Shown here in pieces: positions 11,332-56,791 of a stretch of 64,000 nt of DNA. The position numbers were made by a program, and so were the translations under genes. The notes beneath the pieces were generated by a model. That model did no database searches, was not told where the DNA came from, and saw nothing but the letters and a program-made list of their open reading frames with translations. Position 1 is the first letter of the stretch. Each line of letters begins with the position of its first letter. The DNA is from Bacillaceae bacterium IKA-2 (lineage in GTDB: Bacteria; Bacillota; Bacilli; Bacillales; Anaerobacillaceae): NCBI GenBank assembly GCA_031761875.1, contig CP134492.1:3596001-3660000 (forward strand). The letters run 5' to 3'.

Positions 11332-11364
11332 TCACGCGTCATTTAACATGGGAGAGTGTTTAAG

Positions 11365-36835: not shown

Positions 36836-37870
36836 TTACCTTAATTGGATTGGGTAGTTTCCTTGCTCTTTCACAGTACCAATTTGGATAAGTGTCTCAT
36901 TACGAAGCTTGATTTCACTTTGCAGCTTTTCTGCTTGGTCCGGGGCAACGACAATGATTAAGCCTCCAGATGTTTGGGGATCGTAAAATAGCATTTCCTG
37001 ATTTTTAGGAAGCGTTCTTAGATGCTCAACTTTACTATTAAATGATTGGAAATTGTTATTTATTCCCTCTGATTCTAACCCTCTATCTAATAACGAAAGG
37101 GCATCTTTCAGTAACGGGATATCCTTGACAACTAACTCAATTGTGACCTGACTTTTTTCGGCAATATCACTACTATGACCGATCAAACCATAGCCAGTAA
37201 CATCCGTACAAGCGTGGATAACACATTGACACATTGCCTCTGCAGAATTTTTGTTTAGTTTTATCATGTAGTTAGTTACTTCATTAATCTGCTTATTCGT
37301 AGCAACATTTTGATCAAGAGCAGTGATGTAAACTCCAGTGCCAATGGGCTTCGTAAGAAAAACAAGATCACCAGGCTCAGCGCCTTCTTTACTAATAAAC
37401 GTTTTGCCATCTGGTATATAACCAGTAACAGAAAGCCCATACTTCGGTACATCGTCAATCGTATGACCGCCAACAATAGCAATGCCAGCTTCGCTTACCT
37501 TGTCAACTCCACCGCGAATGATTTCCTCAAGATAACTTAGCGGTAGCGAGGTCAAAGGAAATCCGATAATGTTTAAGGCAAATAGTGGTGTGCCACCTTT
37601 AGCGTAAATATCGCTTAATGAATTGGCCGCCGCAATCGCACCGAACTGGTAAGGATCATCTACTACTGGGGTGATAACATCAACAGTCTGTAATAGTGTT
37701 TGCCCGTTAAAGTTATACGCGACAGCATCCTCACCGATTCCTGCTATTAAATTTTTATCATTACTTATTGGTATGTTACGCAAAACTTGCGTAAGATCAG
37801 ATGATCTAATTTTACAAGCTCAGCCAGAGCCTGGCGAAAATGAAGTTAAAGAAATCGGTGGTAGTTTCAT
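36836..37870 (-). CDS. selD: Selenide, water dikinase SelD, itself a selenoprotein (in-frame UGA)
   Basis: 344 residues when read through TGA 37820-37822. It makes selenophosphate from selenide and ATP for Sec-tRNA synthesis. The UGA is residue 17, with C19 and K20 after it (GSG-U-ACK). This is the position of the catalytic Cys17/Cys19/Lys20 of Escherichia coli SelD, so Sec replaces the catalytic Cys. Downstream marks are GIGEDAVAYNF, IVGGHTIDDVPKYGLSVTG and FYDPQTSGGLII. ATG 37870 has GGGAG about 11 nt upstream; an ATG at 37888 is the alternative. Simple gene calling would start after the UGA and lose the active site. A LysR gene is divergent from it. Confidence 0.93.
37794..37807 (-). promoter_or_regulatory. 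bSECIS-like hairpin of selD
   Basis: AGATC-ATCT-GATCT starts 12 nt after the TGA. The loop lacks the usual G-U, so this is the weakest of the six. Confidence 0.5.
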
Positions 37871-38005: not shown

Positions 38006-38035
38006 ATACCACTTTTAGAGAAATGAGGTACAGTG

Positions 38036-38935
38036 ATGGATTTGCATCAACTAAAAACGTTTTACCATGTGGCTCATTTACTTAATTTTTCAAAAGCTGC
38101 CCAAAAAGTATCTTTAAGTCAACCTGCTGTTTCAAGACAGATCGAATCACTTGAAAAACATTTCGGTTTAGATTTATTTTATCGAATCAGCAAAAAAATT
38201 GAGCTAACTGATGCCGGTAGGAGACTTCTCCAATATACCGAACAATTATTAGCGCTTGCAGAGCAAACTGAAAAAGCGATGAATTCTTTAAAAAATATTG
38301 ATGAAGGTCAGCTGACGATTGGTGCAGGAACTACGGTTGGAAATTATATTCTTTCACCACTAGTTTTGGAGTTTTCAAAAAGATATCCTAATATCAAAAC
38401 AAAGTTAATCATTGCTAAAACATCTGAAATCATCGGAAACATTAAAGAAGGTTTAATTGATACAGCAGTAATTGCTAAATCAGTAAATCATCCTGAGTTC
38501 TATTACCAACCTATTTTTAGAGATGAAATTACTCTTTTAACATCTCCTAACAATTATCAAAGCATAAGTCACGCCGAAACCTTAGCGGATTTATCTAATG
38601 AAGTGTTTTTATTAAGAGAACATGGTTCCAACACACGTGAATGTATTGACTTGTTGATGGCAAAGCATCATTTTAAACCAAAAAAGATCATCGAATTAGG
38701 AACGAATGAAGCCATCAAGCACTCAATTTTAAAAGGCTATGGGATCGGTTTTTTGTCAAGATTTACTGCTCAACTAGAAATTGACCATAAATTGCTTCTC
38801 TCAGTCAAGTTGAAAGAGGAGTGCACGAGAGAATTCTCTACCATCAATCAAAAGGGCAAGTACACTTCTCCAATCATGTTAATATTTACGTCATTCCTGA
38901 AAAAAAATATCCATAGTCATCTAAATAGGAAATAA
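38036..38935 (+). CDS. LysR-family regulator divergent from selD (selenium-metabolism type)
   Basis: 299 residues. The helix-turn-helix is MDLHQLKTFYHVAHLLNFSKAAQKVSLSQPAVSRQIESLE (1-40), followed by an effector-binding domain of the CysL-like group. ATG 38036 is 7 nt after GAGG; a GTG one codon upstream is possible. LysR proteins of this type are found next to selenium genes in other bacteria, and here it is divergent from selD with about 165 bp between. Regulation of selD or of the selenoprotein genes 1 kb away is plausible but inferred. Confidence 0.85.
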   Translation: MDLHQLKTFYHVAHLLNFSKAAQKVSLSQPAVSRQIESLEKHFGLDLFYRISKKIELTDAGRRLLQYTEQLLALAEQTEKAMNSLKNIDEGQLTIGAGTTVGNYILSPLVLEFSKRYPNIKTKLIIAKTSEIIGNIKEGLIDTAVIAKSVNHPEFYYQPIFRDEITLLTSPNNYQSISHAETLADLSNEVFLLREHGSNTRECIDLLMAKHHFKPKKIIELGTNEAIKHSILKGYGIGFLSRFTAQLEIDHKLLLSVKLKEECTREFSTINQKGKYTSPIMLIFTSFLKKNIHSHLNRK

Positions 38936-38980
38936 CCCTTTTCAATGAATGAAGATATCGTTCTTGAAAAGGGCTATTTC
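38929..38980 (+). terminator. Terminator between LysR gene and TlpA-like selenoprotein gene
   Basis: AAATAACCCTTTTCAA ... TTGAAAAGGGCTATTT. A near copy occurs at 44575-44632 beside the relic of the same selenoprotein gene. Confidence 0.85.
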
Positions 38981-39085
38981 TAATTTATTTAGTTGAGTGA
39001 ATTTCATATTTCTAATAAATAGCCAATTTTTCCATCTGTCTACCTTTAGGGGAGCATAACTCCACTAGCATTGTTCGATTGTTAT

Positions 39086-39829
39086 TTATTTTGTTCCTGG
39101 GATTTTACAACCATCTGGCCCACGGTCGTCTGCTTCCGCAAGTTTCTCTTTTTTCAATTGTACTTGCTGCCAATCAATATCGATCGTTGGCGAAAACTTT
39201 TCAGGATAGCGAATGTACCAGAGCTGCTTGCGTATCAAAAAATTGTCTGGGTTATAACGCAGTGCCTCATCTAGTTCTATTAATGCTGTTTCTTTTTTCC
39301 CCTGCTTCAAATACTCTAATCCTAGTGCAAATTTTGTTTTAGAAAGTTTGCGTTCAAGTTCTGATTTTTCGTTTGGTTCATAGTACACATCATCTAATAC
39401 TGCTGTTTCAACTTTCCCAGCAATTAAATCCTCTAAGACGGCTAAATGTTCTTCTTTCGTTACATGAAAGCCTTGTTTCACCATCTTAATTGTTCCTGTT
39501 TCATCAAGAAAAATACCATTTGGTATAATGTCAAAATCAAAGTAATTACCAAGCTTGTTTTCGACATCAACAACAGTTGGATACGATAATCCTTCTGTGT
39601 ATGGCTTCACTACTTCTGGACCTTGAATATCGACTGCTACTGAAAGAATTTGAAATGAACTGTCTTTATGATTATCTAAAAACTGCTGCCAACCTGGCAG
39701 TTGTTCTCGACATCGTCACCAAGATGCCCACATAAAAATGAGGGTTTTCTTACCCAATAATTGTTCCGTTGAAAATCCCTTGCCATCTAGCCCTGTCAAA
39801 GTAAAATTTGGCATTTTTTCTAATAACAT
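39086..39829 (-). CDS. TlpA-like redoxin selenoprotein with TPR-like C-terminus (in-frame UGA)
   Basis: 247 residues read through TGA 39716-39718. The thioredoxin fold starts MPNFTLTGLDGKGF. The active site is FMWASW-U-RC-REQ, with Sec at residue 38 and Cys at 40, at the place of the first Cys in WASWCxxC of TlpA/ResA. The spacing here is U-X-C, not U-X-X-C. The fold continues DIIPNGIFLDETG. A C-terminal helical repeat follows (LGLEYLKQGKKETALIELDEALRYNPDN), TPR-like, then a tail with another Cys (GPDGCKIPG). ATG 39829 has AAGGAAGG 8 nt upstream. No signal peptide, so it should be cytosolic. It lies 53 nt after the AhpD-like selenoprotein gene; the two are likely co-transcribed. Confidence 0.85.
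39686..39700 (-). promoter_or_regulatory. bSECIS-like hairpin of TlpA-like selenoprotein
   Basis: CTGCC-AGGTT-GGCAG, starting 15 nt after the TGA, loop with GGU. Confidence 0.65.
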
Positions 39830-39882
39830 CAAATCAACCTTCCTTGGGGATTTACCCCTCAAAAATTTTCAAGAATTCACCG

Positions 39883-40404
39883 CTACTCTAGTTCAACACC
39901 AAGACCTTCAGCCATACGATTAACAAAATTGAAATAGGAAGTAATTTGGCATAGATCCAAAATTTCACGGTCTGTGCAATCATGTTCCTTTAATAAGACA
40001 ATATCAGCTTCACTGATGCTTGTCGGTTTGTCTGTAAGTTTAATTGCATAATCTAACATCGCCATTGTCTTTCCATCAATTTTGGCTTCTCGGTAATTCT
40101 TTTTAAGTGTTTTAACTAATAGCTCATCTTTCGTCAATAAATGGAGCGCCGCCCCATGATGTTCCATTCAATAATGACACTCGTTTGCTGCCGATACCGT
40201 AGTCGCAATCATTTCACGTTGCGCTCTACTTAAAGGAGATTTTTTAAACATTATTGTCTTGTAAAATGCAAGATGTGTCTCCATTGATTCTGGAAACAGA
40301 CTGTGGACTTTTAAGATATTAGCCACTTTATTTCCCATACCCTCATAAAGCTCTTTTAATTTGCCTTCTGCATCAGCTTCGTTAATTACTTTTATGTAGC
40401 TCAT
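39883..40404 (-). CDS. AhpD-like (carboxymuconolactone decarboxylase family) selenoprotein (in-frame UGA)
   Basis: 173 residues read through TGA 40168-40170. The AhpD/peroxidase-related fold has its redox motif as NECHY-U-MEHH: Cys76-X-X-Sec79, where AhpD proteins have CxxC followed by xxHH. It probably reduces peroxides or serves a peroxiredoxin. Both halves are in the same frame and the second starts directly at the UGA. GGAGG lies 6 nt before ATG 40404. It is divergent from the Crp-type regulator gene (190 bp) and precedes the TlpA-like selenoprotein gene, so the pair may form a peroxide or thiol defence operon. The E. coli relative YnjA is encoded beside a Ynj transporter like the one at 50-56 kb. 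Confidence 0.87.
40141..40157 (-). promoter_or_regulatory. bSECIS-like hairpin of AhpD-like selenoprotein
   Basis: ATGGGGC-GGC-GCTCCAT, a 7-bp stem with one G-U pair, starting 10 nt after the TGA. Confidence 0.6.
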
Positions 40405-40594
40405 AAATACCTCCAAACAATTTCATTCTACTTTTTAGATAATTTGATTAATTATAACTTATTTTGTTTATATTTTTCAAAATCAGGTGCAATTTTTAAG
40501 TTAATGATGCAATTATCTAGAAATACGTGCCTATCCACTACTAAATTTACTTAGTATAATAGATAATATTAGAAAATTAATTGGAGCGTGAGGC

Positions 40595-41278
40595 ATGGAT
40601 AAGATTACCTTAATTTCGCATATAAACCTTTTTGATGAACTTCCGATGAAAGAAATCGAAGTTCTCGATAACATGAGTACGATGCAACCTGTAAAAAAGG
40701 GCACCGTTATTATCTCCCCTATAAAACCAATTAAAGCATTATTTTTGTTAAAGAAAGGCCAAGTACGTCTTTATCGCGTAAATGCTCAAGGAAAACAGTT
40801 TACAACAGACATTTTGGTAGATGGTAATCTTTTTGGTGAAACAACTAGCTTTTCAATATCCGATAATGAAATGTACGTTGAAGCGATGACAGATACATAT
40901 CTCTGCACAATGGCCAAAGATGAGTTTGAAACTTTTATTGAGAAAAATCCGCAAATAGCTTTAAAGCTAATTAACATTCTTACTTCCCGTCTAAAAGATA
41001 CCTATGATCTTAGTGAGAGAATCGCCTTAGGTGACGTCAAATATCGTGTACTTTATTTGTTAGTCCGGCTAAGTGAACGGTCTGGCAAGCGCAAAAACGA
41101 GTGGCAAACCATTGAAATGAGACTTACTCATAATGATATCGCAACAATGGTAGGTTCAACTAGAGAAACTGTAAGCTCTATTATTAGCCAACTTCGCAAA
41201 GACGGCTTGTTAAAAAAGGGCTTACTCTATTACTCCATTGATGCTGATCAGGTGAAGGAGAAATTAGAATTAACTTAA
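40595..41278 (+). CDS. Crp/Fnr-family transcriptional regulator
   Basis: 227 residues. A cyclic-nucleotide-binding-like beta-barrel (residues about 10-120; LFLLKKGQVRLYRVNAQGKQ) is followed by a dimer helix and a Crp-type helix-turn-helix (MRLTHNDIATMVGSTRETVSSIISQLRKDGLLKK, about 175-208). The N-terminus lacks the cysteine cluster of Fnr, so it is not an Fe-S oxygen sensor of that type. ATG 40595 has GGAG upstream. It is divergent from the AhpD/TlpA selenoprotein pair. Direct TGCAATT repeats near 40490 and 40508 lie in the shared promoter region and could be its sites. The effector is unknown. Confidence 0.9.
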   Translation: MDKITLISHINLFDELPMKEIEVLDNMSTMQPVKKGTVIISPIKPIKALFLLKKGQVRLYRVNAQGKQFTTDILVDGNLFGETTSFSISDNEMYVEAMTDTYLCTMAKDEFETFIEKNPQIALKLINILTSRLKDTYDLSERIALGDVKYRVLYLLVRLSERSGKRKNEWQTIEMRLTHNDIATMVGSTRETVSSIISQLRKDGLLKKGLLYYSIDADQVKEKLELT

Positions 41279-41284
41279 TTTTTA

Positions 41285-41362
41285 CTTAGGTGAATGACTT
41301 TCATAATACCATTATACTAGCCATATCTAGTACCTTAGTGGCACGAATCTGCTTTATGTAAT
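41285..41362. repeat. Dispersed repeat family B, diverged copy
   Basis: GTGAATGACTTTCATAATAC ... CTTAGTGGCACGAATCTGC, matching the order of the family (GTGAATTTCATAATACCAAT ... GTGGCGCTGAATC) with changes. Confidence 0.45.
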
Positions 41363-41565
41363 TCTTTCAGGCACCTGATATTAGGCGGGTTCTATGCAGA
41401 AAAAAAATAGTGATACTATTGATTATTTAATTGAGATCGTTTAATGACCAAGATGAGCCTCTTATTAAAAAATTAGCTAACCGGTTGCTCTCAATTCATG
41501 ATTAAAACGGTGCTTGGTAATTGCTTTATGATGACCCTGTTATTAAGAATGCTCTCAAACGAATC

Positions 41566-41610
41566 AAAAACAGCCCTTTTTATCGGAAAGTAAGATAAAA
41601 AAGGGCTTTG
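41566..41610. terminator. Hairpin terminator beside DsbA relic
   Basis: AGCCCTTTTTATC ... GATAAAAAAGGGCT, stem about 12-13 bp. The 452-bp gap 41279-41730 holds this, a family B repeat copy and the relic; otherwise I see nothing. Confidence 0.8.
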
Positions 41611-41611
41611 G

Positions 41612-41725
41612 CAATTATTAGCATACCATTCTGGTTTAGCTGTTGGGATTGCATCGAGAGGTAGTTTCGGACTTACCAAGCTATTGTGATTTCATTTTAT
41701 TCCAAGGTTTTAGAGACCCCGTGTG
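41612..41725 (-). pseudogene. Relic of DsbA-like selenoprotein gene
   Basis: About 110 bp that align with 45700-45790 inside the intact DsbA-like gene: TCTAAAACCTTGGA versus TCTAAAACCTTTGGA, then AACTACCTCTCGATGCAATCC versus AACTACCTCTAGACGCAAACC, then AAACCAGAATGGTATG. Encoded traces are SLKP, LPLDA and AKPE. Internal changes and missing ends make it non-coding. Same strand as the intact copy 4 kb away. Confidence 0.7.
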
Positions 41726-41730
41726 CTTAG

Positions 41731-42168
41731 TTATTCAACATTTTTTATACTAATTCTTTGATCATTTTGGTTTAGTAGCTTATATAGTTGGATTATTAAT
41801 AATCCTTGTTTGTATGTCGCATCAACCTTATCGTTACGAACGGCATAAGGGAGTTGTATAACGCGCTTGAAGTCGCCATACTGAAACTCTTTTTGTGTTA
41901 ACTTAAAATTATTAAATTGTACATCAATATTTCCACTGACTTCAATTGTATTCAAATGAACTTTTAGCGAGACCATATCGACGTTTTCGATACCTGGTAA
42001 TAAAACGACACAAAGCATTTCATTATATCCTTCATAGAGATTTACTTGTAAATTGCTGTTTTGTTGGTTGTTATTGTTATTGTTAATAAGATGCTGAAAG
42101 CCTTTGAAAAAATCTTGTTCAAAAGTTTTTTGAAACGGTTTCATCCACTCCATCATGTCACGATCCAT
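41731..42168 (-). CDS. Spore-associated Hsp20-like small heat shock protein
   Basis: 145 residues. The N-terminal region has a run of Asn (INNNNNNQQN), followed by an alpha-crystallin-like domain (LYEGYNEMLCVVLLPGIENVDMVSLKVHLNTIEVSG to YKQGLLIIQLYKL). It is similar in plan to small Hsp20 proteins encoded near spore coat genes in Bacillus (CotP/GerT type). I chose ATG 42168 with GGTGAG just upstream; a GTG 12 nt earlier is possible. It follows gerPF by 121 nt on the same strand and may be under the same late sporulation control. Chaperone activity is inferred from the fold. Confidence 0.75.
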   Translation of the reverse strand: MDRDMMEWMKPFQKTFEQDFFKGFQHLINNNNNNQQNSNLQVNLYEGYNEMLCVVLLPGIENVDMVSLKVHLNTIEVSGNIDVQFNNFKLTQKEFQYGDFKRVIQLPYAVRNDKVDATYKQGLLIIQLYKLLNQNDQRISIKNVE

Positions 42169-42289
42169 TGTGCTCACCACTTTTCGCTTATTTAATTATT
42201 TTTACACCAATTTAAACTGTTATAATTTTAAAAGTAGAAGCTGGATAAAAATAAATGAAAGAGCCAATCGTTTAGATAGACTCAATCAT

Positions 42290-42508
42290 TTAGATATTTC
42301 CAGCTAGATTTTGATCAATTAGATCTGGATCCAATATATTGTTCGCATTAATTCCGTTGTTTGTGATTGTAAAATCCCCCGAGTTTCCACCACCAGAGCC
42401 AGAAACAACTTTCGAAGTACTTTTTGGCGAAATATTGAGCGTATCTCCGAAATTGATTACGCCACTATTTTCATTAATTTTAAATGGGCCACCGACGATA
42501 GAAGGCAT
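42290..42508 (-). CDS. gerPF: Spore germination protein GerPF
   Basis: 72 residues: MPSIVGGPFKINENSGVINFGDTLNISPKS, then a Gly/Ser-rich stretch and GDFTITNNGINANN. It is the short GerPF form, paralogous to GerPA. In Bacillus the GerP proteins sit in the inner coat and make the coat permeable to germinants. It is last in the gerPABCDEF order here. A GGG-containing ribosome site lies upstream of ATG 42508. Confidence 0.92.
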   Translation of the reverse strand: MPSIVGGPFKINENSGVINFGDTLNISPKSTSKVVSGSGGGNSGDFTITNNGINANNILDPDLIDQNLAGNI

Positions 42509-42577
42509 ACTAACACCCTTTTCATTTCGTATTAATATATAGTGTATGTGAAGCTGTTTTAGAGGTTACATTAACTG

Positions 42578-42952
42578 TTAATTTGTATCATTGTCTAGTT
42601 GCCTAATATGTTTGATTCTACTCTCGGCAGCAATATAGTTATTTGAGCCGATTTGATATAAACTAGAGGCTGAAACACTCGTAACATGGATATGATCAAC
42701 TTTAATAAAGGATGATAGATTATATCTATTAGTAGTAAGGTTAGTAACCATCTTAGGTTTAGGTATCTCCATTGTAAAGATCGGAAACGCTTCAAAATCG
42801 CCTTCTTTTCCAAAGAAAATTTGGACTCGTCGTTGCACAGCAAGGACTCGAGAACGTGGGGTAACTTTAGACGCATCCCCAATCAAAAAAATAGAACTTA
42901 ATGATACGTTTCTTACAATTGTATGATTGACCATCGAAATCCTTTTAGGCAC
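42578..42952 (-). CDS. gerPE: Spore germination protein GerPE
   Basis: 124 residues: RISMVNHTIVRNVSLSSIFLIGDASKVTPRSRVLAVQR, with a second VTSVSASSLYQIGSN repeat of the GerPB/D type near the C-terminus. GTG start 42952 with GGAG about 8 nt upstream, 14 nt after gerPD. Part of the inner-coat GerP set. Confidence 0.92.
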   Translation of the reverse strand: MPKRISMVNHTIVRNVSLSSIFLIGDASKVTPRSRVLAVQRRVQIFFGKEGDFEAFPIFTMEIPKPKMVTNLTTNRYNLSSFIKVDHIHVTSVSASSLYQIGSNNYIAAESRIKHIRQLDNDTN

Positions 42953-42966
42953 GCTAGATCGACTCC

Positions 42967-43143
42967 TTATTCCGATGCTAGTGGAGCAAAAGGACCAATA
43001 ATTAATGATTCAGGTGGTGTATCAAAAACAGAAGCTAGTGAAATGTTATCAGTATCCCCAACTAAAAAAATAGATGAACTCGCTACTCCTACTACATTAA
43101 TGTTTCCTACACTAATACTATGGTTTACGACAGTGAAATTCAT
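42967..43143 (-). CDS. gerPD: Spore germination protein GerPD
   Basis: 58 residues, read by hand on the minus strand: FTVVNHSISVGNINVVGVAS, then SSSIFLVGDTDNISLASVFD and a GPFAPLASE end. This is the GerPD pattern and length. ATG 43143 lies 6 nt after the gerPC stop, and gerPE follows 14 nt later. It completes the operon, which would otherwise appear to lack this gene because an ORF on the opposite strand masks it. Confidence 0.92.
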   Translation of the reverse strand: MNFTVVNHSISVGNINVVGVASSSIFLVGDTDNISLASVFDTPPESLIIGPFAPLASE

Positions 43144-43149
43144 AAGAGT

Positions 43150-43767
43150 TTACTCCCCTTTTCTTGGAATATGTTTTACAAATTCTTCCACAGTTCGGTT
43201 GATATCATTTTTTATTGTGTTTAGGGTCGTTTCTTTAATTTTATCCAAAGCTTCTTCGTTTTGGTCTTCTATATTGATATCCTTAATGTAATATTGAATC
43301 CGACTATCAATTTGTTTTCTTATATCTTCTACGATAAATTCTCGGTACGGGGTATCAAGTTGATAATTATAAAGTTGTTCAATTGATTTCATAACATTGT
43401 AGCATTCACCATTTAAATAATTATCAACCTCTTTTTTAATACTTTCATAAAATTGAGAGTTTTGCAGTGATGGATTAGGGACATTTATTTTGTTTTGATT
43501 TATTGCAAAATCTTCGAAGGAATTCGGCTCGATACCACCTGTAGGTGTTATACCAATATTTAGCGTACCTTCTAGTCTTTCGACCTTTAACTGATCAAAT
43601 TTATATTCAATTTTTTCTGGTCGACGAGAAATCTGCTGGTTTAATGTAGCTAACTCATTTTGTAGATCTTTCATTGAATTTTCTAATTGTTCAATTTTTC
43701 GTTGTTGAGCTTCTAAATATTGGTACAGTTGTTGAAGGTTTGTCATAAAGTCGTAGTTATAATTCAT
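43150..43767 (-). CDS. gerPC: Spore germination protein GerPC
   Basis: 205 residues. It begins with a coiled coil (LQQLYQYLEAQQRKIEQLENSMKDLQNELATLNQQ, about 10-45), then the GerPC core RPEKIEYKFDQLKVERLEGTLNIGITP and a helical C-terminus. GerPC is the only non-tiny member and is thought to help place the GerP complex in the inner coat. AAGGAGGGA lies 9 nt before ATG 43767. Confidence 0.92.
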   Translation of the reverse strand: MNYNYDFMTNLQQLYQYLEAQQRKIEQLENSMKDLQNELATLNQQISRRPEKIEYKFDQLKVERLEGTLNIGITPTGGIEPNSFEDFAINQNKINVPNPSLQNSQFYESIKKEVDNYLNGECYNVMKSIEQLYNYQLDTPYREFIVEDIRKQIDSRIQYYIKDINIEDQNEEALDKIKETTLNTIKNDINRTVEEFVKHIPRKGE

Positions 43768-43804
43768 ACATTCCCTCCTTGAACAAATAGCTACTATTTA
43801 ATTA

Positions 43805-44038
43805 CTACCTTGGTGGAGCTGGTGGAGCTGCTGGAGCTGGGGAAGCAAGGGGCACAAGTGGAATAGGCGCTATTGGATCCACTGCCACAGGGCTAGGCTC
43901 CACAAAATCACCCGTATTATAGAGATTTGATAAAGCTTTGATCATCCCCGCGCTGCCAATTTGTAAAACCGATGAGTTTGTAACGCCACCAACTTTTAAA
44001 GTATTAATATTTATTGTTTGATTAATATAGAAATTCAC
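43805..44038 (-). CDS. gerPB: Spore germination protein GerPB
   Basis: 77 residues: MNFYINQTININTLKVGGVTNSSVLQIGSAG, typical GerPB, followed by an unusually Pro/Ala-rich C-terminus (PLASPAPAAPPAPPR). GTG start 44038 with AGGTGG upstream, 16 nt after gerPA. Confidence 0.92.
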   Translation of the reverse strand: MNFYINQTININTLKVGGVTNSSVLQIGSAGMIKALSNLYNTGDFVEPSPVAVDPIAPIPLVPLASPAPAAPPAPPR

Positions 44039-44054
44039 CTAAACACCACCTAAG

Positions 44055-44276
44055 CTAAATGATTGTGCTTATATTAGAATCTGCAAAATCTTTATCGTAC
44101 GTATTTGTTTCACTGTAATCATTTCTCAATGTTAAATGGTCACCTGTATTAAATGATCCTGCACCAGCAAAGGTCTTTGCTGTGCTAACAGGAGAAATTG
44201 TAAAAACATCTCCTATATTAAAAACGCCACTACTCCCAATAGCATTTACTTTTACGGCACCAACAATTGCAGGCAT
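44055..44276 (-). CDS. gerPA: Spore germination protein GerPA
   Basis: 73 residues: [31 protein letters not shown], the GerPA/GerPF fold of small beta-rich coat proteins, ending with an Asp/Thr-rich tail. First gene of the six-gene operon. I chose ATG 44276, with AAAAGGA about 9 nt upstream. A 16-bp inverted repeat sits just upstream in the leader. Confidence 0.92.
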
Positions 44277-44292
44277 AAATATCCGTCCTTTT

Positions 44293-44350
44293 GGCATCTC
44301 CAATGAAATAATGGATCAGTATGATGGTCCGTTTTTTCATTGGAGATGCC
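44293..44350 (-). promoter_or_regulatory. Perfect 16-bp inverted repeat in the gerPA leader
   Basis: GGCATCTCCAATGAAA (44293-44308) and its exact complement (44335-44350) with a 26-nt loop. In the transcript the second arm ends 3-4 nt before the gerPA ribosome site, so it may affect translation or mRNA stability. The 514-bp gap 44277-44790 also holds a family C repeat, a terminator copy and a selenoprotein relic. Confidence 0.7.
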
Positions 44351-44511
44351 TTATTAATAACTTTTCTTATTACCAACATATGTGAATGCCCAGTAAATGT
44401 TCCATATAATTAAGGGAATGAATGAAATGAGATTACTAAGTCAAGTTGTGAATGAAATTTATACATACGGATAGAACACCCGTTACATCAGTGACGGGTG
44501 GTTCATACAAG

Positions 44512-44571
44512 AAAAGCGCAAGCGCCTGAAGCTAGACAGACACGAAAACTTTATACGTTCTTACCTTTTAA
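44512..44571. repeat. Dispersed repeat family C, copy 6
   Basis: GAAAAGCGCAAGCGCCTGAA, GCTAGACAGACACGAAAAC and TTATACGTTCTTACCTTTTA; the last part matches 16787-16820. Confidence 0.7.
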
Positions 44572-44574
44572 AAT

Positions 44575-44632
44575 AGGAAATAACCCTTTTCAATAGATGA
44601 TGAGTCTTCTTAAAAAGGGCTATTTCCTATTT
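44575..44632. terminator. Duplicate of the 38929 terminator
   Basis: AGGAAATAACCCTTTT ... AAAAGGGCTATTTCCT, near-identical outer arms to 38929-38980 with a diverged loop. Confidence 0.75.
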
Positions 44633-44698
44633 ATTTATTTATGATGATGATAGAATCGATCAACCTATACTCAGTTGTTGGATCGTAATTTAATTTGT

Positions 44699-44792
44699 TC
44701 ATAGGATTTTACAACTTTCAAATCCACAATCTTCTGCTTCCTTGAGCTTTTTTTTTCTGCTGCTCCTGTTGCCAGTCAATATCAATTGACTT
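44699..44792 (-). pseudogene. Relic of the TlpA-like selenoprotein C-terminus
   Basis: The minus strand encodes SIDIDWQQEQQKKK and, after a frameshift in an A-run, KLKEAEDCGFESCKIL. This parallels TIDIDWQQVQLKKEKLAEAD ... GPDGCKIPG of the intact gene at 39086. The body and active site are missing. It abuts the stop codon of the glutaredoxin-like gene and lies beside a duplicate of the same terminator. Confidence 0.75.
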
Positions 44793-45021
44793 AGATTTTA
44801 AGCTTATCTCTCCACTCACTATGATACATATATGAAACTCCTTGATAATATAAAAACGGGACGATTATTTCGCTATTCATTTGGAAAATTTCATTACTCC
44901 GTTCAGGCTTCTCTAATATATCAACTTCATCAAAAGGAATTTTTTGCTCTTGTAAAAAACCTTTCATTATTTTACATTTTGAGCATCCTTTCATCGTGTA
45001 CAAAATGGCTGTAGTCAACAT
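44791..45021 (-). CDS. Glutaredoxin-like small thiol protein
   Basis: 76 residues with thioredoxin fold and CSKC active site (ILYTMKGCSKCKIMKGFLQEQ), then FDEVDILEKPERS and VPFLYYQGVSY in which the cis-Pro lies. It is cytosolic and probably a glutaredoxin/NrdH-like electron carrier. I chose ATG 45021, with GGGAGGA 5 nt upstream; a longer reading runs through a palindromic repeat. It is between two selenoprotein loci, on the same strand. Confidence 0.85.
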   Translation of the reverse strand: MLTTAILYTMKGCSKCKIMKGFLQEQKIPFDEVDILEKPERSNEIFQMNSEIIVPFLYYQGVSYMYHSEWRDKLKI

Positions 45022-45072
45022 ATTCTCCTCCCAATTATTTCTAGTGCTAATCGTTTTCGATACTTTGCTTTT

Positions 45073-45159
45073 GGTGTCAGACACCATGTGAAATTCACCA
45101 GATAATACGATGGTACCAAGGTTAAATATTCACAAACTTCTTGATTGGTGTCAGACACC
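45073..45159. repeat. Palindrome-bounded repeat family A, copy 2
   Basis: 87 bp between GGTGTCAGACACC at 45073-45085 and 45147-45159. The interior GATAATACGATGG and TATTCACAAACTTCTTGATT is shared with the copy at 46893. Confidence 0.9.
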
Positions 45160-45185
45160 CTAATATTGATTTAATGATTTGATCA

Positions 45186-45262
45186 TTCAGATTCAGCACC
45201 ATTAGGATGTTACATCTAGTTGAGTTTGATATTGCTAATTTAATGGTGTTATGAATTTCTCT
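45186..45262. repeat. Dispersed repeat family B, diverged inverted copy
   Basis: On the minus strand GAAATTCATAACACCATTAA ... CAACTAGATGT ... CTAATGGTGCTGAATC, the same order as the 57313 copy. Confidence 0.5.
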
Positions 45263-45276
45263 CTATTACTTATGGT

Positions 45277-45849
45277 CTAAATTATTTTTTTAAGATCATT
45301 TACAGTAGGCATATCCTGATAATGATGAACTTGAATAATCCCACCCTTACCAAGATATGATGGAATTGTCCATATCTTATTTTGTACCGCGCTCTGATAA
45401 TCATTTTCAACAATATTTCTATATTCATCACCAGTGACCGCCTCAATGAATTCACTTGAACTCAATCCAATCTCTTTGGCGATATTTGCTAGAAGGATAA
45501 GATCTTCTATATTCTCATCCTTCTCCCATACAGCCTCAAAAATCCGCTGGTGATACTCATGAAACAAACCTTTACTTTTAGCATATTTAGCCCCTACATG
45601 CGCTAAATATGTATCTCTTTTCGCGGATGGTGGCTGTATCTGTAATCCTGTTTCTTTTATTAGTTTTTCAAGATACTGTTTCGCACCATTACCATACCCT
45701 TCTGGTTTAGCTGGTGGGTTTGCGTCTAGAGGTAGTTTCCACGCTTTCCAATCTAGTGTAACTCCATCTTGTTCCAAAGGTTTTAGAGACACCGTCTCCG
45801 TATAGCAAAACGGTCAAGTATAATCAAAGAATATTTGTAAATGTTCCAT
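45277..45849 (-). CDS. DsbA/FrnE-family selenoprotein (in-frame UGA)
   Basis: 190 residues read through TGA 45814-45816. It starts MEHLQIFFDYT-U-PFCY: Sec at residue 12 and Cys at 15 give U-P-F-C in place of the CPxC of DsbA-like FrnE proteins. The helical insert follows (PPAKPEGYGN...), then HVGAKYAKSKGLFHEYHQRIFEAVWEKDENI and the cis-Pro loop TIPSYLG. No signal peptide, as usual for the cytosolic FrnE/2-hydroxychromene isomerase-like branch. AAGGAG lies 7 nt before ATG 45849. Without the readthrough the ORF begins after the active site at a GTG. A decayed copy lies at 41612. Confidence 0.9.
45786..45798 (-). promoter_or_regulatory. bSECIS-like hairpin of DsbA-like selenoprotein
   Basis: GAGAC-GGT-GTCTC, starting 15 nt after the TGA, with the classic GGU loop. 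Confidence 0.72.
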
Positions 45850-46115
45850 TTTATCAGCTCCTTCTTATAAGTTTTATTCAACAATCACTAATTCTCGTAT
45901 ATGCTCATGAACATTAAATCCCTGCACATGGATTTGCACTCATAATAGGGCTCCATCCAAATACGTATCGCCAATCAGAAATGTTATTATAGTGGTATTC
46001 TAACAAATTTAACCGTGAATTTATGTAATCTAACTTACACTTTGACATCTGAGTCAGTACCTTCGTTAATATGAGTTCTGCAATCGATATCAGTGTTAGG
46101 CATTTACTTCTAGTG

Positions 46116-46853
46116 TTAATCCTTCTTCCAACGATACGGTAACTTGACCATATTTTCATCTCCACTAATTGTCTGAATACTATCAAGCATATCGATAACT
46201 ATTTTCCTCTGTAAATCTCGTCTCCCAGCAGCTCCAAAACTTCTCCCTAACGGAAATCGTAAATGGAGAGCACGAGGCACAGCTACTTTTTTACTTAAGT
46301 CAGGTAAATGGGAAATACTACTTGTGGCAATCCCAGCCTTTTCAACTGCTTTTTGAATCAATCCCACGGATTGATGACAAATATATCAGCCAGGTGATGC
46401 TAGCAGCACATCTACCTTGTCAGCCTTTAACTGAGCAACAATTTGCGGGATTGTTTCTTCAAGTAGTGGTTTGGTATTTGGAATATAACCCATTAATCCA
46501 TAATGAGTCGAAGCTGTAGCATTAATTATCCCCTCATCCCGAAGCTCATGAAGGATAGCAATCGGAAAAACGCAATTAATATCTTTCTCAGCATCCGTTA
46601 TATCATAATGAGTATGGGTAATCATTAGTTCCGCTTCAATAACATCATCTTGAATTAAACGGAGGCTATGATCGCCATTCTCTACATCAAACCCAGCTTG
46701 AGACTTCAGGTGAACACCAGCCGTTGTTAAAAAAGCGACCCGCCACTCTTTCATTGGCTTGTCTAGCTTTACCAACCCAACCTTATCTGTTTGACCCCTT
46801 ACCATCACTTTTGCTACTTTCGTAAACAGAAAATGCTTTATTTTTTTTAGCAT
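46116..46853 (-). CDS. Stand-alone GrdB/PrdB-like reductase selenoprotein B family protein (in-frame UGA)
   Basis: 245 residues read through TGA 46386-46388. The protein belongs to the glycine/sarcosine/betaine reductase selenoprotein B (GRDB) family but is much shorter than full GrdB (over 400 residues). N-terminal marks are RVAFLTTAGVHLKSQ and THTHYDITDAEKDINCVFPI. The UGA is residue 156 in LLASPG-U-YIC, giving U-X-X-C with C159 where the family has its catalytic Sec. The C-terminus continues VPRALHLRFPLGRSFG. ATG 46853 follows GGGGGAAGC. No grdA, grdE or other reductase subunits are adjacent, so a classical Stickland glycine reductase is unlikely; the substrate is unknown. Confidence 0.87.
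46358..46374 (-). promoter_or_regulatory. bSECIS-like hairpin of GrdB-like selenoprotein
   Basis: TCAATCC-GTG-GGATTGA, a 7-bp perfect stem starting 11 nt after the TGA, loop with GU. Confidence 0.7.
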
Positions 46854-46892: not shown

Positions 46893-46974
46893 GGTGTCAG
46901 ACACCATGTGAAAATCGCGTGATAATACGATAGTTTCAAGTTTCTGTATTCACAAACTTCTTGATTGGTGTCAG
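46893..46974. repeat. Palindrome-bounded repeat family A, copy 3, split by the IS element
   Basis: GGTGTCAGACACC at 46893-46905, interior as in copy 2, then GGTGTCAG (46967-46974) where the IS begins. The missing CAGACACC resumes at 48842-48849. Confidence 0.85.
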
Positions 46975-48860: not shown

Positions 48861-50294
48861 CTACCGAAACCACTGAATGTACTTTTTTGCTAATTTAGGG
48901 ATCGCCCCGCCAAATAGCTTCTTGCGCCAGTATTGGTCTGCTAATCTTTGCAAAATTGCGCCTCTGATTGGATAAGGGTGAATAACATTTGATAGATTAC
49001 CTATTTTATGTCCATGCTGTTTCGCATAAACGATTTCCTGCATCCACTCCCCTGCTCCAGGGCCAACGGCGTGTGCTCCTAATATCTTGCCATTTTTGTC
49101 GGTAATTACTTTTGCGATCCCATCTAGCTTACGATCAGCTACAAAGCGGTCTACATCATCAGTGGTTACCTCGTATATAGTTGCATTGTCAGCAAACTTA
49201 ACTCTTGCCTCTTGTTCTGTTAACCCTAAATGGAACACTTCTGGATCTGTAAACGTTACCCAGGGAACATTGTCGTAGTCAACTTTCTTTTTTAAACCGA
49301 ATACGGCATTTGCAACGACTACTTTCCCTTCCATTCCCGCTGCATGTGTAAAAGGAAACGCACCAATAACGTCACCAACGGCGTAAATATGAGGAATAGA
49401 AGTTTTTAATGTCGGTGTGACGACAATATTTCCTCTTTCTACCTTCACACCAATCGCCTCTAAACGTAGATTTTCAATATTAGATTTTCGACCCACGGCG
49501 ACTAAAATCTCGTCTACCTCAATGTTTTCATCATCTCCATCGACACTTATTGTAACTATTTTTGTACCGCTGTCAGTTAGTGCAACTTTTCTCACCCCTG
49601 CCCCAAGTCGAAATTCCAACTCTTTTTCAAGTGCTTTTTTAACAAATGGAACAATTTTGTTATCTTCTCTTCCAAAAATTTCTTTTGCCATATCAACGAC
49701 TATGACTTCGGAACCAAACCTTGCCATTGCTTGCGATAGCTCTAAACCAATCGGGCCTGCACCAATCACTAGCAGTCGCTTTGGAGCTTCTTCTTGTTCA
49801 AAAATCGTTTCATTTGTTAAAAATCCAGCTTCAGATAAGCCATCAATAGGTGGAATGATTGGTCGAGAGCCTGTCGCTATGACAATTCGTTTTCCATATA
49901 TAACCTCATCTATACCACTAACCTCAACATGGTTAGCATCTTTAAATGTCCCTAGCCCTTGGTAGACATCAACACCCATATCTCTGAAGCGATCGGCACC
50001 GTCGTGGCCTTGAATCTGAGCAATTGCTGCTTTGACACGTTTTTTTGCAACAGCTAAGCTAGCTTCACCGTCTAGTGTCATCCCAAACTCTGCAGCTGCT
50101 TTTCTTGCTGTAAATATTTCTTTTGCCGCCTCTATTAGCGCTTTAGAAGGAACACAACCATAATGCAAACAATCTCCACCAGGCTCTTGTTCCTTTTCAA
50201 TAAGTGCCACTTTTGCTCCTAAACTTGCGCCACCAGCAGCAACCGTTAACCCACCAGCCCCGCCACCAATAACGATCAAATCATATTTTTTCAT
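48861..50294 (-). CDS. Mercuric-reductase-like pyridine nucleotide-disulfide oxidoreductase
   Basis: 477 residues. It starts YDLIVIGGGAGGLTVAAGGASLGAKVALIE (FAD) and has the redox disulfide GGDCLHYGCVPSK. NAD(P) binding is at LLVIGAGPIGLELSQAMARFG, with the second FAD motif at HIYAVGDVIG and the dimerisation domain at the end. There is no N-terminal metal-binding HMA domain and no MerA-type C-terminal Cys pair (it ends KKYIQWFR), so it should not be called mercuric reductase. I chose ATG 50294 with GGGGG 9 nt upstream. It is the last gene of the Ynj-like operon, separated from the preceding gene by a family A repeat. Confidence 0.9.
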   Translation of the reverse strand: MKKYDLIVIGGGAGGLTVAAGGASLGAKVALIEKEQEPGGDCLHYGCVPSKALIEAAKEIFTARKAAAEFGMTLDGEASLAVAKKRVKAAIAQIQGHDGADRFRDMGVDVYQGLGTFKDANHVEVSGIDEVIYGKRIVIATGSRPIIPPIDGLSEAGFLTNETIFEQEEAPKRLLVIGAGPIGLELSQAMARFGSEVIVVDMAKEIFGREDNKIVPFVKKALEKELEFRLGAGVRKVALTDSGTKIVTISVDGDDENIEVDEILVAVGRKSNIENLRLEAIGVKVERGNIVVTPTLKTSIPHIYAVGDVIGAFPFTHAAGMEGKVVVANAVFGLKKKVDYDNVPWVTFTDPEVFHLGLTEQEARVKFADNATIYEVTTDDVDRFVADRKLDGIAKVITDKNGKILGAHAVGPGAGEWMQEIVYAKQHGHKIGNLSNVIHPYPIRGAILQRLADQYWRKKLFGGAIPKLAKKYIQWFR

Positions 50295-50375
50295 CAACAC
50301 AAACCCCCATCTTTTGATTGCCCTTGACATCTTACTGTCGAACGATCACCTTGCTTAAATTGTGCGATTTGACTC

Positions 50376-50470: not shown

Positions 50471-51055
50471 TTAGTCTTTCAGTATTCGTCTAGCTTCTAA
50501 TAACCTTTGCATGCCTGTAAATATTTCAACGGCTAAGAAAATTAGCGTGATTAGTAGTAAATGATTTGCGAGTAAGATCATCAATGTAAATAAAATAAAT
50601 CCTTCTGTTCGCTCTGCAAGCCCTGCTTGATAATGAAATGACTTCATGCCTTTGTTCTCGGAAACTGCTCCTACTGTTAAAAATACCGTCATTGAAAAAA
50701 TAATCGAGACGCTTAGTAATAACAAAGCCCACATTGCATCAGGAAATGCGAAGGCTAGGCCCAAAATCACACTTATTTCAACTAAACGATCTAGTGTTAC
50801 ATCTAGTACCGTTCCCCAGCTAGATGGCTTTGTTAGTCTCGCCATCGTTCCATCTACTGCATCTAAAAAGCCAGAAAGCCAGAGCACAACAACAGCGATA
50901 ATAGGATAACCAAAGTATATTAACAAACCTGTCGAAACTCCGATACAAAATGAAATCAATGTTACTTGATTAGCTGATAAACCAAGCTTTAATAGCCCTT
51001 TTGCAGAACTCAAAATCATTGGTTGAACATATTTCCTACCATGTGTATCAAGCAC
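50471..51055 (-). CDS. CDP-alcohol phosphatidyltransferase family protein (YnjF-like)
   Basis: 194-residue membrane enzyme. The catalytic motif D-G-x2-A-R-x8-G-x3-D-x3-D is complete: DAVDGTMARLTKPSSWGTVLDVTLDRL (with DAVDG before it). It transfers a phospho-alcohol from a CDP donor to another alcohol, as in phospholipid head-group synthesis. I chose GTG 51055, with GGAGG 8 nt upstream, over a TTG two codons earlier. The same enzyme family is encoded by ynjF beside ynjBCD in Escherichia coli, which supports a conserved linkage. Confidence 0.85.
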   Translation of the reverse strand: MLDTHGRKYVQPMILSSAKGLLKLGLSANQVTLISFCIGVSTGLLIYFGYPIIAVVVLWLSGFLDAVDGTMARLTKPSSWGTVLDVTLDRLVEISVILGLAFAFPDAMWALLLLSVSIIFSMTVFLTVGAVSENKGMKSFHYQAGLAERTEGFILFTLMILLANHLLLITLIFLAVEIFTGMQRLLEARRILKD

Positions 51056-51070
51056 AAGCAATCCCTCCGA

Positions 51071-51772
51071 TCACGTTTTCACGGAAATCCCTAGTTTCTG
51101 TTTTAATCTTTTACTTGTCAGAATAGGAATAAACATGACAAGTAAGAATATGGCAATAGCCAAGAGAACGGTTACCCAATCGCCATCGACGATACTTGCC
51201 CCTAAAAAGTTGTAAGCAAACGTTCCTGGGATGATCCCAAAAAGAGTTCCGAAAAAGAATGCTCGTAATTTTACTTTTGATATCCCTGCTAAGTAGCTGA
51301 TCATATCAAAGTTTAAAATAGGAATGAAACGAAGCAGGACAACGTAAAAAAAGCCTTTTTCCTCTAATTGTCTTTGTACGGTGGCCGATTTTCCAGTCCA
51401 CTCTTTTTTTGCAACATTTTTCCCTAACTTCCGGGCGATTATAAATGAAAGTACCGCTCCGGCCGTTGCCCCAATAACTGTAAATATCGTACCAAATGCA
51501 GCTCCAAATGCTAACCCTCCCGCTAAAGATAAGATCGATGCAGGAAACAAAATCAATGGTCGTAATGTATAAATAATGATAAATAAAAATGGTGCAAACC
51601 AACCAAACGATAAAATCCAATTGCGAATTTCTACAGGAGTTGTTTGGATATACTCATTGTTAAACCACAATAAAAACCCGATCGTTAGTAAAATAATTAA
51701 ACTTTTTAGCATCGTTTTTTTCTTCAACTTCAACTTTACCTCAACTCCCCTCTGCCTCACTTTAACTGCCAT
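51071..51772 (-). CDS. TVP38/TMEM64-family membrane protein (first of two)
   Basis: 233 residues by the longest reading, with about five membrane segments. The family core is LRPLILFPASILSLAGGLAFGAAFGTIFTVIGATAGAVLSFIIARKLGKN, with FRFIPILNFDMISYLAG and FGTLFGIIPGTFAYNFLG. These DedA-related proteins probably move lipids or ions across the membrane; the function is not settled. Escherichia coli has two such genes (ydjX, ydjZ) just before ynjABCD. The start is unsure: ATG 51772 overlaps the ATPase gene by 16 nt but lacks a ribosome site, and a TTG about 13 codons in is possible. Confidence 0.85.
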   Translation of the reverse strand: MAVKVRQRGVEVKLKLKKKTMLKSLIILLTIGFLLWFNNEYIQTTPVEIRNWILSFGWFAPFLFIIIYTLRPLILFPASILSLAGGLAFGAAFGTIFTVIGATAGAVLSFIIARKLGKNVAKKEWTGKSATVQRQLEEKGFFYVVLLRFIPILNFDMISYLAGISKVKLRAFFFGTLFGIIPGTFAYNFLGASIVDGDWVTVLLAIAIFLLVMFIPILTSKRLKQKLGISVKT

Positions 51773-52710
51773 ACATCAGTTTCGTTTATTGTAACAATTA
51801 CCTCATCTTCTTCATTTATATCTTGATTAGTTGGGATAATAATCTCTCTAACAACTTCATCTAGGCTAATTTTATCGAACGACTGACCATATTTCATAAA
51901 ACGTTTCGTAATCCGACCTTTCCAGCTAAACTTCGTGTCATTTTCAACAACATCGGAAACCGTTAATTTAGTAACCGGAACAAATAACCCACTATCAAGA
52001 ACAAAACCTTCACTAAAAAACGCCGCTACTTCTTTATTTTTCGGGAAATGATAGACCTCATCAGGTGTACCAATTTGCTGCAACGTTCCATTCTCCAAGA
52101 CGGCAACGCGATCACCGATCAGCATCGCTTCTTCCTTATCATGGGTAACGAACATGGCAGTCATTCCTTCTTGCTTCAATAAACCATGAACCCATTCTCT
52201 TAAAGTGCTGCGAAGCTCTGGATCTAACGAACTGAATGGCTCATCAAGTAGTAACAATTTTGGTTTTAAAATTAACGCCCTCGCTAATGCAACACGTTGC
52301 TGCTGCCCACCTGAAAGTTCGTATGGATAACGGTTCTCAAAACCTGTCATCTCTACCTTTGCCAAAAACTCCTGTCCACCCTTTATCCGCTCTCTTTTTC
52401 CGACCTTTCTCATCTTCAAGCCATAGGTAACGTTTTCTATTACGGTCAGATGCGGAAAAAGTAAGGTTTGCTGGAACATCATCACGATTGGGCGCTGACT
52501 TGGGGAAACATTGACAATATTGTTTCCCTCCACAAAAATTTCCCCCGAAGTCAGGTTTTCTAGTCCAGCAATGCAGCGGAGTAATGTAGACTTACCAGTC
52601 CCGGACGGTCCTACTAAGCTAACAATCTCACCTTCAGCGATCTCTACAGTTATATCTTTAAAAATCGTTCCTTCTGAAAATTCTTTTTGACAGTTTACCA
52701 ATTTAATCAC
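51757..52710 (-). CDS. ABC transporter ATP-binding protein (YnjD-like)
   Basis: 317 residues. Walker A is GPSGTGKSTLLR, the Q-loop is MMFQQTLLFPHL, the signature is LSGGQQQRVALARAL, and Walker B is LLLLDEPFSSLDPELR; a C-terminal TOBE-like domain follows. It energises the two permeases encoded upstream. I chose GTG 52710 (IKLVNCQKEF) because the open frame before it lies partly in a repeat copy. The start is only moderately sure. Belongs to the sulfate/thiamine/iron-type importer group, as YnjD does. Confidence 0.88.
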   Translation of the reverse strand: MIKLVNCQKEFSEGTIFKDITVEIAEGEIVSLVGPSGTGKSTLLRCIAGLENLTSGEIFVEGNNIVNVSPSQRPIVMMFQQTLLFPHLTVIENVTYGLKMRKVGKRERIKGGQEFLAKVEMTGFENRYPYELSGGQQQRVALARALILKPKLLLLDEPFSSLDPELRSTLREWVHGLLKQEGMTAMFVTHDKEEAMLIGDRVAVLENGTLQQIGTPDEVYHFPKNKEVAAFFSEGFVLDSGLFVPVTKLTVSDVVENDTKFSWKGRITKRFMKYGQSFDKISLDEVVREIIIPTNQDINEEDEVIVTINETDVWQLK

Positions 52711-52771
52711 TTGGCCATTTTCACCACCTTTTTTTACAATAACTATTTTAACGAATTTCATCATTCTAATT

Positions 52772-56745: not shown

Positions 56746-56791
56746 CTCGTTTACTCCTCAATTCAAATAGTTCAACAAAAACAACTAATTA

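Follow-up and report, generated by a model that had tools for sequence, protein, structure and literature searches.

Four putative selenocysteine-containing redox proteins of Bacillaceae bacterium IKA-2 and their possible tie to a Ynj-type importer

Within a 64,000-nt stretch of the genome of Bacillaceae bacterium IKA-2 (contig CP134492.1, positions 3,596,001 to 3,660,000 of the forward strand; hereafter the window, from whose first letter positions are counted), four genes on the minus strand almost certainly encode selenocysteine (Sec, U) at a single in-frame UGA. They are a TlpA/ResA-like gene (tlpA-U), an AhpD-like gene (ahpD-U), a FrnE/DsbA-like gene (frnE-U) and a PrdB-like gene (prdB-U), and their positions are collected in Table 1. 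Judged from sequence, the four products probably form a redox set of the cytosol based on thiol/selenol chemistry, with a possible tie to a Ynj-type importer that is encoded in the same window. The host is a spore-forming bacterium, and its genome consists of one contig of 4.42 Mb.

In each of the four genes, the only in-frame UGA falls in a redox motif (U-R-C, C-H-Y-U, U-P-F-C and U-Y-I-C), as the first-pass annotation of this DNA had read it. Its further claim, that the two halves of each gene belong to one family, also holds, since the family matches continue over the UGA in all four (Pfam models for TlpA, AhpD and FrnE; the NCBIfam model TIGR04483 only for PrdB). All four read-through genes start with ATG and have, by eye, putative ribosome-binding sites upstream. 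The four genes are indeed present, but not as the one cluster that had been claimed: they form two pairs (39086-40404 and 45277-46853) about 5 kb apart with other genes between them, ahpD-U lying 53 nt upstream of tlpA-U. A single operon of the four was rejected, because a Crp gene, hsp20, gerP genes and a glutaredoxin gene stand between the pairs. Plain listing of open reading frames (ORFs) splits or truncates all four genes; because only 11 codons of frnE-U precede its UGA, such a listing gives at most seven pieces and not the eight fragments that had been expected. Among the stops of the window, long read-through (at least 80 codons) after ORFs of at least 50 aa was found at 4 of 43 TGA, none of 47 TAG and 3 of 99 TAA codons, and of the four long TGA read-throughs one marks the normal junction of two genes. 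Taken by itself, the length of a read-through speaks mildly for Sec decoding.

Homologues of each of the four families were searched for in a sample of 199 genomes of the host's order, the window's own copies being counted in, here and in the hairpin sets below. Sec or Cys stands at the UGA column in 96 of the 97 rows, and the remaining row is a truncated remnant (locus L106), in keeping with the earlier statement that each UGA occupies a redox or catalytic Cys position. The column holds 26 U and 2 C in PrdB (n = 28, excluding one weak row, E 9.7e-4, without a stop) and 9 U and 20 C in AhpD (n = 29; 30 loci were taken, of which L052 gave no usable match, and one 28% match bearing TGA is excluded). 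It holds 5 U and 15 C in FrnE (n = 20 loci examined, drawn from well over 100 match rows) and 16 U, 3 C and the one gap in TlpA (n = 20). The stop codon at the site is TGA in all 56 of the stop-bearing sequences examined. All nine AhpD matches of at least 61% identity (host included) bear one TGA each, as do, among the matches listed, 17 near full-length TlpA matches of at least 52% in 16 genomes; TGA is found in 31 of 33 strong PrdB matches. No full-length Cys form of TlpA-U was found among the matches listed, and the three Cys forms in its column are distant ResA-like proteins only. The nearest FrnE relatives (52% and 45%) have Cys at the site; UGA forms were met in four of those examined, at 28-29%. 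In all four proteins, U occupies the redox-Cys position of the family; it replaces the first, nucleophilic Cys in TlpA-U and FrnE-U and the second Cys in AhpD-U, which we take to be the peroxidatic Cys of AhpD.

The hairpin that had been described 10-15 nt past each UGA was found in all four genes, the stems starting 15, 10, 14 and 10 nt downstream in tlpA-U, ahpD-U, frnE-U and prdB-U, respectively. For comparison with Sec insertion sequence (SECIS) elements, we used the published constraints of the bacterial model (bSECIS: a loop of 3-9 nt, G among the first two loop bases, 16-37 nt from the UGA, minimum free energy at most -7.5; from excerpts of PMC13188914), together with a simplification of our own, namely a stem with no fewer than 4 bp in uninterrupted succession. 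All six candidate UGAs of the window (those of the four genes, of selD and of a redoxin-type gene) agree with the model; among the controls, 10 of the 64 remaining ORF stops of the window and 59 of 300 codons drawn at random within genes do so. Among the homologues, it is matched by all 56 UGA forms versus 8 of 40 Cys forms. When each gene was recoded synonymously (300 times per gene), the UGA forms gave a mean z of -1.67, with 28 of the 56 at p ≤ 0.05, and the 40 Cys forms a mean z of -0.21, with five at p ≤ 0.05; the signal is weaker for the UGA forms of PrdB (8 of 26). In the tlpA stem, all 16 sequences are paired at five of the six positions and 11 at the sixth; two of the pairs vary on both sides. 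The ahpD stem is invariant in nine sequences and thus uninformative on covariation. One pair of the prdB stem varies on both sides, and the last pair is formed in 9 of the 12 selected sequences, a count that leans towards pairing since a fixed four-base stretch was required and 14 of the 26 UGA forms were left out. The frnE stem is paired in three to five of five sequences per position, these being poorly in register.

The decoding machinery that this selenium-dependent interpretation presupposes, selA, selB and a tRNA-Sec with a UCA anticodon, is present in the host genome. A selD gene and a Crp/Fnr-family regulator gene had been reported close to the four genes, and both are there (Table 1). 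The window's selD carries a UGA of its own, as does a second host selD (L011:8128-9171, motif GKAGUGCK), which shares a 15-kb stretch with selA and selB, a LysR-type gene coming next. The window also has a LysR-type regulator gene, and a selenium-metabolism LysR subfamily has been described (PMC5322559, in part). SelB is recognized in 96 of the 199 genomes overall, and in all of those with TlpA-U (16), AhpD-U (9) or PrdB-U (26), together 35 of 35 with FrnE outside this count, and in neither of the two genomes with a Cys-form PrdB; these genomes are related and so are not independent samples.

As to what each protein is, AhpD-U exceeds the curated cut-off of TIGR01926 (144.2 vs 81.8 bits), and FrnE-U that of PF01323 (80.6 vs 25.6 bits), its UPFC corresponding to a CPxC-type site; FrnE-U also matches the solved FrnE structures 5cp1 and 5cnw. 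The fold model of TlpA-U places U38 at the start of a thioredoxin-type helix, and a search with this model gave thioredoxin, DsbE and ResA chains as top matches. TlpA-U has in addition a TPR match of 23.5 bits, just under the Pfam cut-off of 27, and a CGPEGC-type C-terminal Cys pair is seen in 15 of 16 aligned TlpA-U rows, the window protein having Arg for the first Cys. It remains below the cut-off of NF041054, a model of WAxxUGC ResA-like proteins (113.2 of 300 bits, the first 82 positions of the model unmatched), and has URC rather than UGC. No obvious signal peptide was recognized by eye in any of the four proteins, so that they are placed in the cytosol; a redox role there is quite likely.

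The fourth protein had been called GrdB-like. The GrdB identity was rejected, as the GrdB model TIGR01917 gave only 38.5 of 602.2 bits versus 187.9 of 300 bits on TIGR04483 (D-proline reductase PrdB); the PrdB type is thus the better name, although both scores are under the cut-offs. The TIGR04483 match covers residues 23-244 with UxxC kept, and PF07355 is matched over its cut-off (27.0 over 22 bits) by residues 2-149, which stop before U156. The structure model is confident (pLDDT, the predicted local distance difference test, 91.9), and no PDB match was found for it at E ≤ 0.001 by Foldseek, nor any by phmmer. The host holds three UGA-form PrdB-like genes: the window copy, L063 (3183853-3184569) and L064 (2059831-2060421). 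A partner of the GrdE/PrdA type (PF09338, to which PrdA presumably belongs) was not found in the host genome; in the wider sample, searched to provide a positive control for this negative, the PF09338 model matches four of the 199 genomes (G020, G153, G128 and G197). In G020 (L118) and G153 (L117), the PF09338 gene precedes a Cys-form PrdB by about 0.6 kb, apparently as a PrdAB-like pair, with no SelB match in either genome. G128 has three PF09338 genes and its UGA-form PrdB-like genes on another contig, and in G197, too, the PF09338 match is elsewhere than upstream of a Cys-form PrdB.

Upstream of prdB-U on the same strand, the window contains a full YnjBCD-type importer, with binding protein, permease and ATPase genes all present, and seven window proteins match YdjX/YdjZ, YnjB, YnjC, YnjD and YnjF of Escherichia coli K-12, in which the gene order is ydjXYZ-ynjABCDEF; E. 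coli YnjB matches the same model, NF008633, as the window's binding protein. The neighbourhoods of the relatives were compared in loci of mostly about 19 kb with matches at E 1e-8, and the neighbour figures are plain counts. A near full-length YnjB-type gene occurs in two of eight AhpD-U loci (L058, L061) and in four of 11 PrdB-U loci of at least 46% identity (L022, L062, L129, L131). Seven of the same 11 have a DedA/TVP38 match, one of them being the host's own second copy, and a near full-length MerA-like gene is found in L058, L061, L129 and L138. Some relatives thus have AhpD-U or PrdB-U within a larger transport locus of the Ynj/Ydj type, comprising YnjBCD, DedA and CDP-alcohol transferase genes and in many cases a MerA-like gene. 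In L054, AhpD-U directly adjoins TlpA-U, and in L060 the two are separated by 7 kb. Near PrdB-U, rhodanese-type genes occur in L062 and L129 (models under cut-off) and a flippase-type gene in L063 (TIGR00374 over cut-off), and similar rhodanese- or flippase-type reading frames were seen by eye in L022, L062, L127, L128 and L131; L063 has a YdjZ homologue as well, and arsenic-type genes as judged by eye. A Crp/Fnr gene accompanies the module in L058 (99% of its length), L060 (88%, in two pieces) and, as an 18% piece, L138. The ydjXYZ-ynjABCD locus of E. coli appears in an FNR regulon table (PMC3688515, in part), which makes control by a regulator of the Crp/Fnr type a reasonable guess.

On the reading that we favour, a cytosolic redox set perhaps tied to this importer, electrons of NAD(P)H would be relayed by the MerA-like flavoprotein and by thioredoxin or glutaredoxin to the selenol enzymes. 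AhpD-U would reduce peroxide at U79, resolved by C76, TlpA-U (U38/C40) and FrnE-U (U12/C15) would exchange thiols and disulfides, and PrdB-U would use U156 as nucleophile and C159 as resolving residue. The set would then handle an oxidised or thiol-reactive compound, or its damage, entering via the Ynj-type importer. A thiol/peroxide role of the set is plausible. A functional tie to the importer has, in our estimate, somewhat less than an even chance; the case is best for PrdB-U and AhpD-U and weak for TlpA-U, and no tie was seen for FrnE-U. More tentatively still, the locus could be a Sec-based version of the Ynj/Ydj import system, with AhpD-U and PrdB-U (and TlpA-U in some genomes) as a chemical core acting on the imported compound or its damage, and with the TPR- and CGPEGC-bearing TlpA-U as an unnamed subfamily that is Sec-only in the sample.

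Several observations weigh against the tie. The importer link is drawn from gene order alone, and no YnjB is nearby in five of eight AhpD-U and seven of 11 PrdB-U relatives. TlpA-U stands by MerA-like and DedA genes in one of 11 loci chosen by TlpA (L138, without YnjB), and FrnE lies beside none of the importer module in either of two loci. In the distant PrdB group (L064-L069), the module occurs in none of six loci, which are a weak control since they are confined to the genus of the window and one locus spans just 4 kb. A PrdB of this distant group occurs in L060 7 kb from importer remnants. L060 was rejected as a full Ynj locus, since the binding protein is represented there by about 43% and the MerA-like protein by 11%: AhpD-U lies there beside the remnants, in which the 3' part of the binding-protein gene abuts the last part of the MerA-like gene, and TlpA-U and the distant PrdB-U lie 7-8 kb from this locus. 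Since L060 has remnants only, the estimates for the functional tie and for the reading as a whole are slightly lower. Co-transcription is doubtful, because other genes separate the two pairs and a transposase gene of the IS110 type stands between prdB-U and the MerA-like gene. Finally, AhpD-U and E. coli YnjA do not belong to one subfamily, and orthology of the two is not supported: YnjA scores 22.7 of 81.8 bits on TIGR01926 and gave no tblastn match at E 1e-3.

The alternatives that have to be weighed are not mutually exclusive. A general peroxide/disulfide defence, in which the Sec enzymes would be ordinary antioxidants and the transporter a neighbour by coincidence or co-inheritance, shares its chemistry with the favoured reading, and we regard it as rather unlikely. 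It fits the family memberships of AhpD (TIGR01926), FrnE and TlpA, the relatives that have no YnjB nearby, and TlpA-U, which mostly stands apart. However, AhpD-U and PrdB-U, although of different Pfam families, each recur by the same importer locus, and this recurrence extends over several families of the order (L058 and L061; L062, L129 and L131) and to Bacillus sp. DNRA2 (L022). The set might otherwise serve arsenic or selenium-oxyanion metabolism, which seems improbable. In L056 and L057, arsenic genes stand beside AhpD-U and point away from it (two of eight loci, in two species of one genus; the ArsB and ArsC models are over cut-off in L056, and L057 and arsR were read by eye), the second host copy of PrdB-U has the arsenic-type genes mentioned above, and an ArrA-like molybdoenzyme (1059 of 1600 bits) is encoded in the window. 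But the relatives concerned are few, no metalloid gene was seen within 39-57 kb of the window, and the rhodanese-type and lipid-type neighbours do not call for such a role.

A Stickland-type proline or glycine reductase metabolism (PrdB/GrdB), suggested by the PF07355 and TIGR04483 similarity with its conserved UxxC and by G128, in which UGA-form PrdB-like genes coexist with the three PF09338 genes on another contig, is very improbable: the cut-off of TIGR04483 is not reached, and PF09338 was not found in the host, although its model does match the four genomes named above, in two of them a short way ahead of a Cys-form PrdB. As for pseudogenes, sequencing errors or UGA read as another amino acid, some neighbouring copies in the window are truly decayed; however, the UGA and the SECIS hairpin are kept across many genomes and every stop at the site is TGA, and to this explanation we give hardly any weight.

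Table 1. Predicted features of the window (bits are given as score over, or of, the model cut-off)
Feature	Position	Strand	Remarks
Redoxin-type lipoprotein, selenoprotein candidate	13435..13962	-	UGA 13750-13752, motif FTGISUQIC; PF00578 29.7 over 26 bits, across UGA
selD with own UGA	36836..37870	-	UGA 37820-37822; TIGR00476 322.9 over 125 bits
LysR-type regulator	38033..38935	+	best match NF040786 (selenium-metabolism LysR), 218.7 of 250 bits, below cut-off
TlpA/ResA-like putative selenoprotein gene (tlpA-U)	39086..39829	-	247 aa, U38, motif WASWURC, UGA 39716-39718
tlpA-U SECIS-like hairpin	39686..39700	-	CTGCCA-GGT-TGGCAG
AhpD-like, peroxidase-related putative selenoprotein gene (ahpD-U)	39883..40404	-	173 aa, U79, motif CHYU, UGA 40168-40170
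ahpD-U SECIS-like hairpin	40141..40157	-	ATGGGGC-GGC-GCTCCAT
Crp/Fnr-family regulator, divergent from ahpD-U	40595..41278	+	family match
Degenerate fragment, second frnE copy	41617..41729	-	repeat; frames broken
Degenerate 3' end, second tlpA-U copy	44675..44756	-	repeat
Glutaredoxin-like protein, CSKC (Cys form)	44791..45021	-	PF00462 36.9 over 22.9 bits
FrnE/DsbA-like putative selenoprotein gene (frnE-U)	45277..45849	-	190 aa, U12, motif UPFC, UGA 45814-45816
frnE-U SECIS-like hairpin	45785..45799	-	GGAGAC-GGT-GTCTCT
PrdB-like putative selenoprotein gene (prdB-U)	46116..46853	-	245 aa, U156, motif GUYICHQ, UGA 46386-46388
prdB-U SECIS-like hairpin	46357..46375	-	ATCAATCC-GTG-GGATTGAT
MerA-like FAD/NAD(P) disulfide reductase	48861..50300	-	PF07992 198 over 26.1 bits; best NCBIfam 445.6 of 620
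CDP-alcohol phosphatidyltransferase	50471..51061	-	E. coli YnjF homologue, 30%
DedA/TVP38 (VTT domain) membrane protein	51071..51772	-	PF09335 101.4 over 33.9 bits; YdjX/YdjZ homologue
ABC ATPase	51757..52764	-	YnjD homologue, 35%
Two ABC permeases	52865..54520	-	match two parts of E. coli YnjC, 25% and 27%
ABC substrate-binding protein, YnjB family	54495..55748	-	NF008633 454.1 over 203 bits; 35% to YnjB
Second DedA/TVP38 protein	56053..56757	-	43% to E. coli YdjZ
Thioredoxin-like protein, WCPDC	56792..57121	-	TIGR01068 58.9 of 96.8 bits

The window has further features of its own. Between the two gene pairs are decayed pieces of frnE and tlpA, and duplicated terminator-like repeats were found at 38923-38994 and 44571-44640, which suggests past duplication and rearrangement. 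Three copies of a dispersed repeat, about 82-90 nt long and ending in GGTGTCTGACACC, lie at 45073-45154, 46893-46974 and 50376-50462. Its two copies upstream of the glutaredoxin and PrdB-U genes were considered as a shared regulator of Sec genes, a candidate that was rejected because a 101-base query that contains the repeat gave 24 matches across the genome, including the copy at 50376-50462; the repeat looks like a small mobile element or one of the repetitive extragenic palindrome (REP) type. An IS110-family transposase gene (47293-48825) lies between prdB-U and the MerA-like gene. The redoxin-type UGA gene, whose SECIS-like hairpin is among those agreeing with the bSECIS model, adjoins a ResA-like gene. 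A CcdA-like name for the protein at 11356-12558 was dropped, as no Pfam match was found for it. At 8062-10632 on the minus strand is a large molybdopterin oxidoreductase gene, whose best NCBIfam match is ArrA (1059.3 of 1600 bits, below cut-off).

Selenoproteins of the same kinds are on record. PrdB with UxxC, AhpD-like proteins with CxxU, DsbA-like proteins with UxxC and Prx-like proteins with UGC or UxC appear in the Sargasso Sea and Global Ocean Sampling (GOS) surveys (PMC1088965, PMC2398784, both in part), one GOS read bearing a Prx-like 1 gene next to an AhpD-like 2 gene (PMC2398784); the families and Sec motifs agree, but those excerpts deal with metagenome reads, whereas here a whole genome and an importer locus are at hand. 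TIGR01926 AhpD, PF01323 DsbA and a UGC-type TlpA are among the selenoproteins listed in excerpts of PMC13188914. The last of these (NF041054, 'UGC-containing TlpA') likewise has a ResA-like domain with U-x-C at the same place, and the window's TlpA-U differs from NF041054 in its URC, its TPR region and its CGPEGC tail. D-proline reductase PrdB shares UxxC and the similarity over residues 23-244, but the window protein is below the cut-off and the search of the host gave no PF09338 partner. The SAO and Tso operons, as excerpted from PMC13188914, also bring several selenoproteins together, and SAO includes ABC transporter subunits. However, no Sao (SaoB, SaoC, SaoP, SaoT) or Tso model was over cut-off among the matches listed for 20 window proteins, and SaoA, at 177.3 of 360 bits, was one of many ABC ATPase models matched.

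The nearest likeness of the importer locus is ydjXYZ-ynjABCD-ynjF of E. coli, with a homologous importer, two DedA proteins and a CDP-alcohol transferase. Both loci have an AhpD-like protein, but E. coli YnjA is a Cys form (CEFC), and the annotation of the E. coli stretch examined contains no MerA-, PrdB- or TlpA-like gene. YnjA (L147:5516-6061) best matches NF053654, a YciW-related (seleno)protein model, at 101.1 of 310 bits.

In short, the selenoprotein families are already known, and the link to the Ynj locus and the TlpA-TPR subfamily are the fresh parts; no Ynj-linked selenoprotein locus or TlpA-TPR/CGPEGC selenoprotein was found among the matches listed in open-licence literature, although publication elsewhere is possible. 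Bacillaceae bacterium IKA-2 offers a single complete genome in which several functionally uncharacterised selenoprotein families can be tested jointly, and it gives a lead on the role of the standalone PrdB-like selenoproteins and of the ydjXYZ-ynjABCD locus of E. coli.

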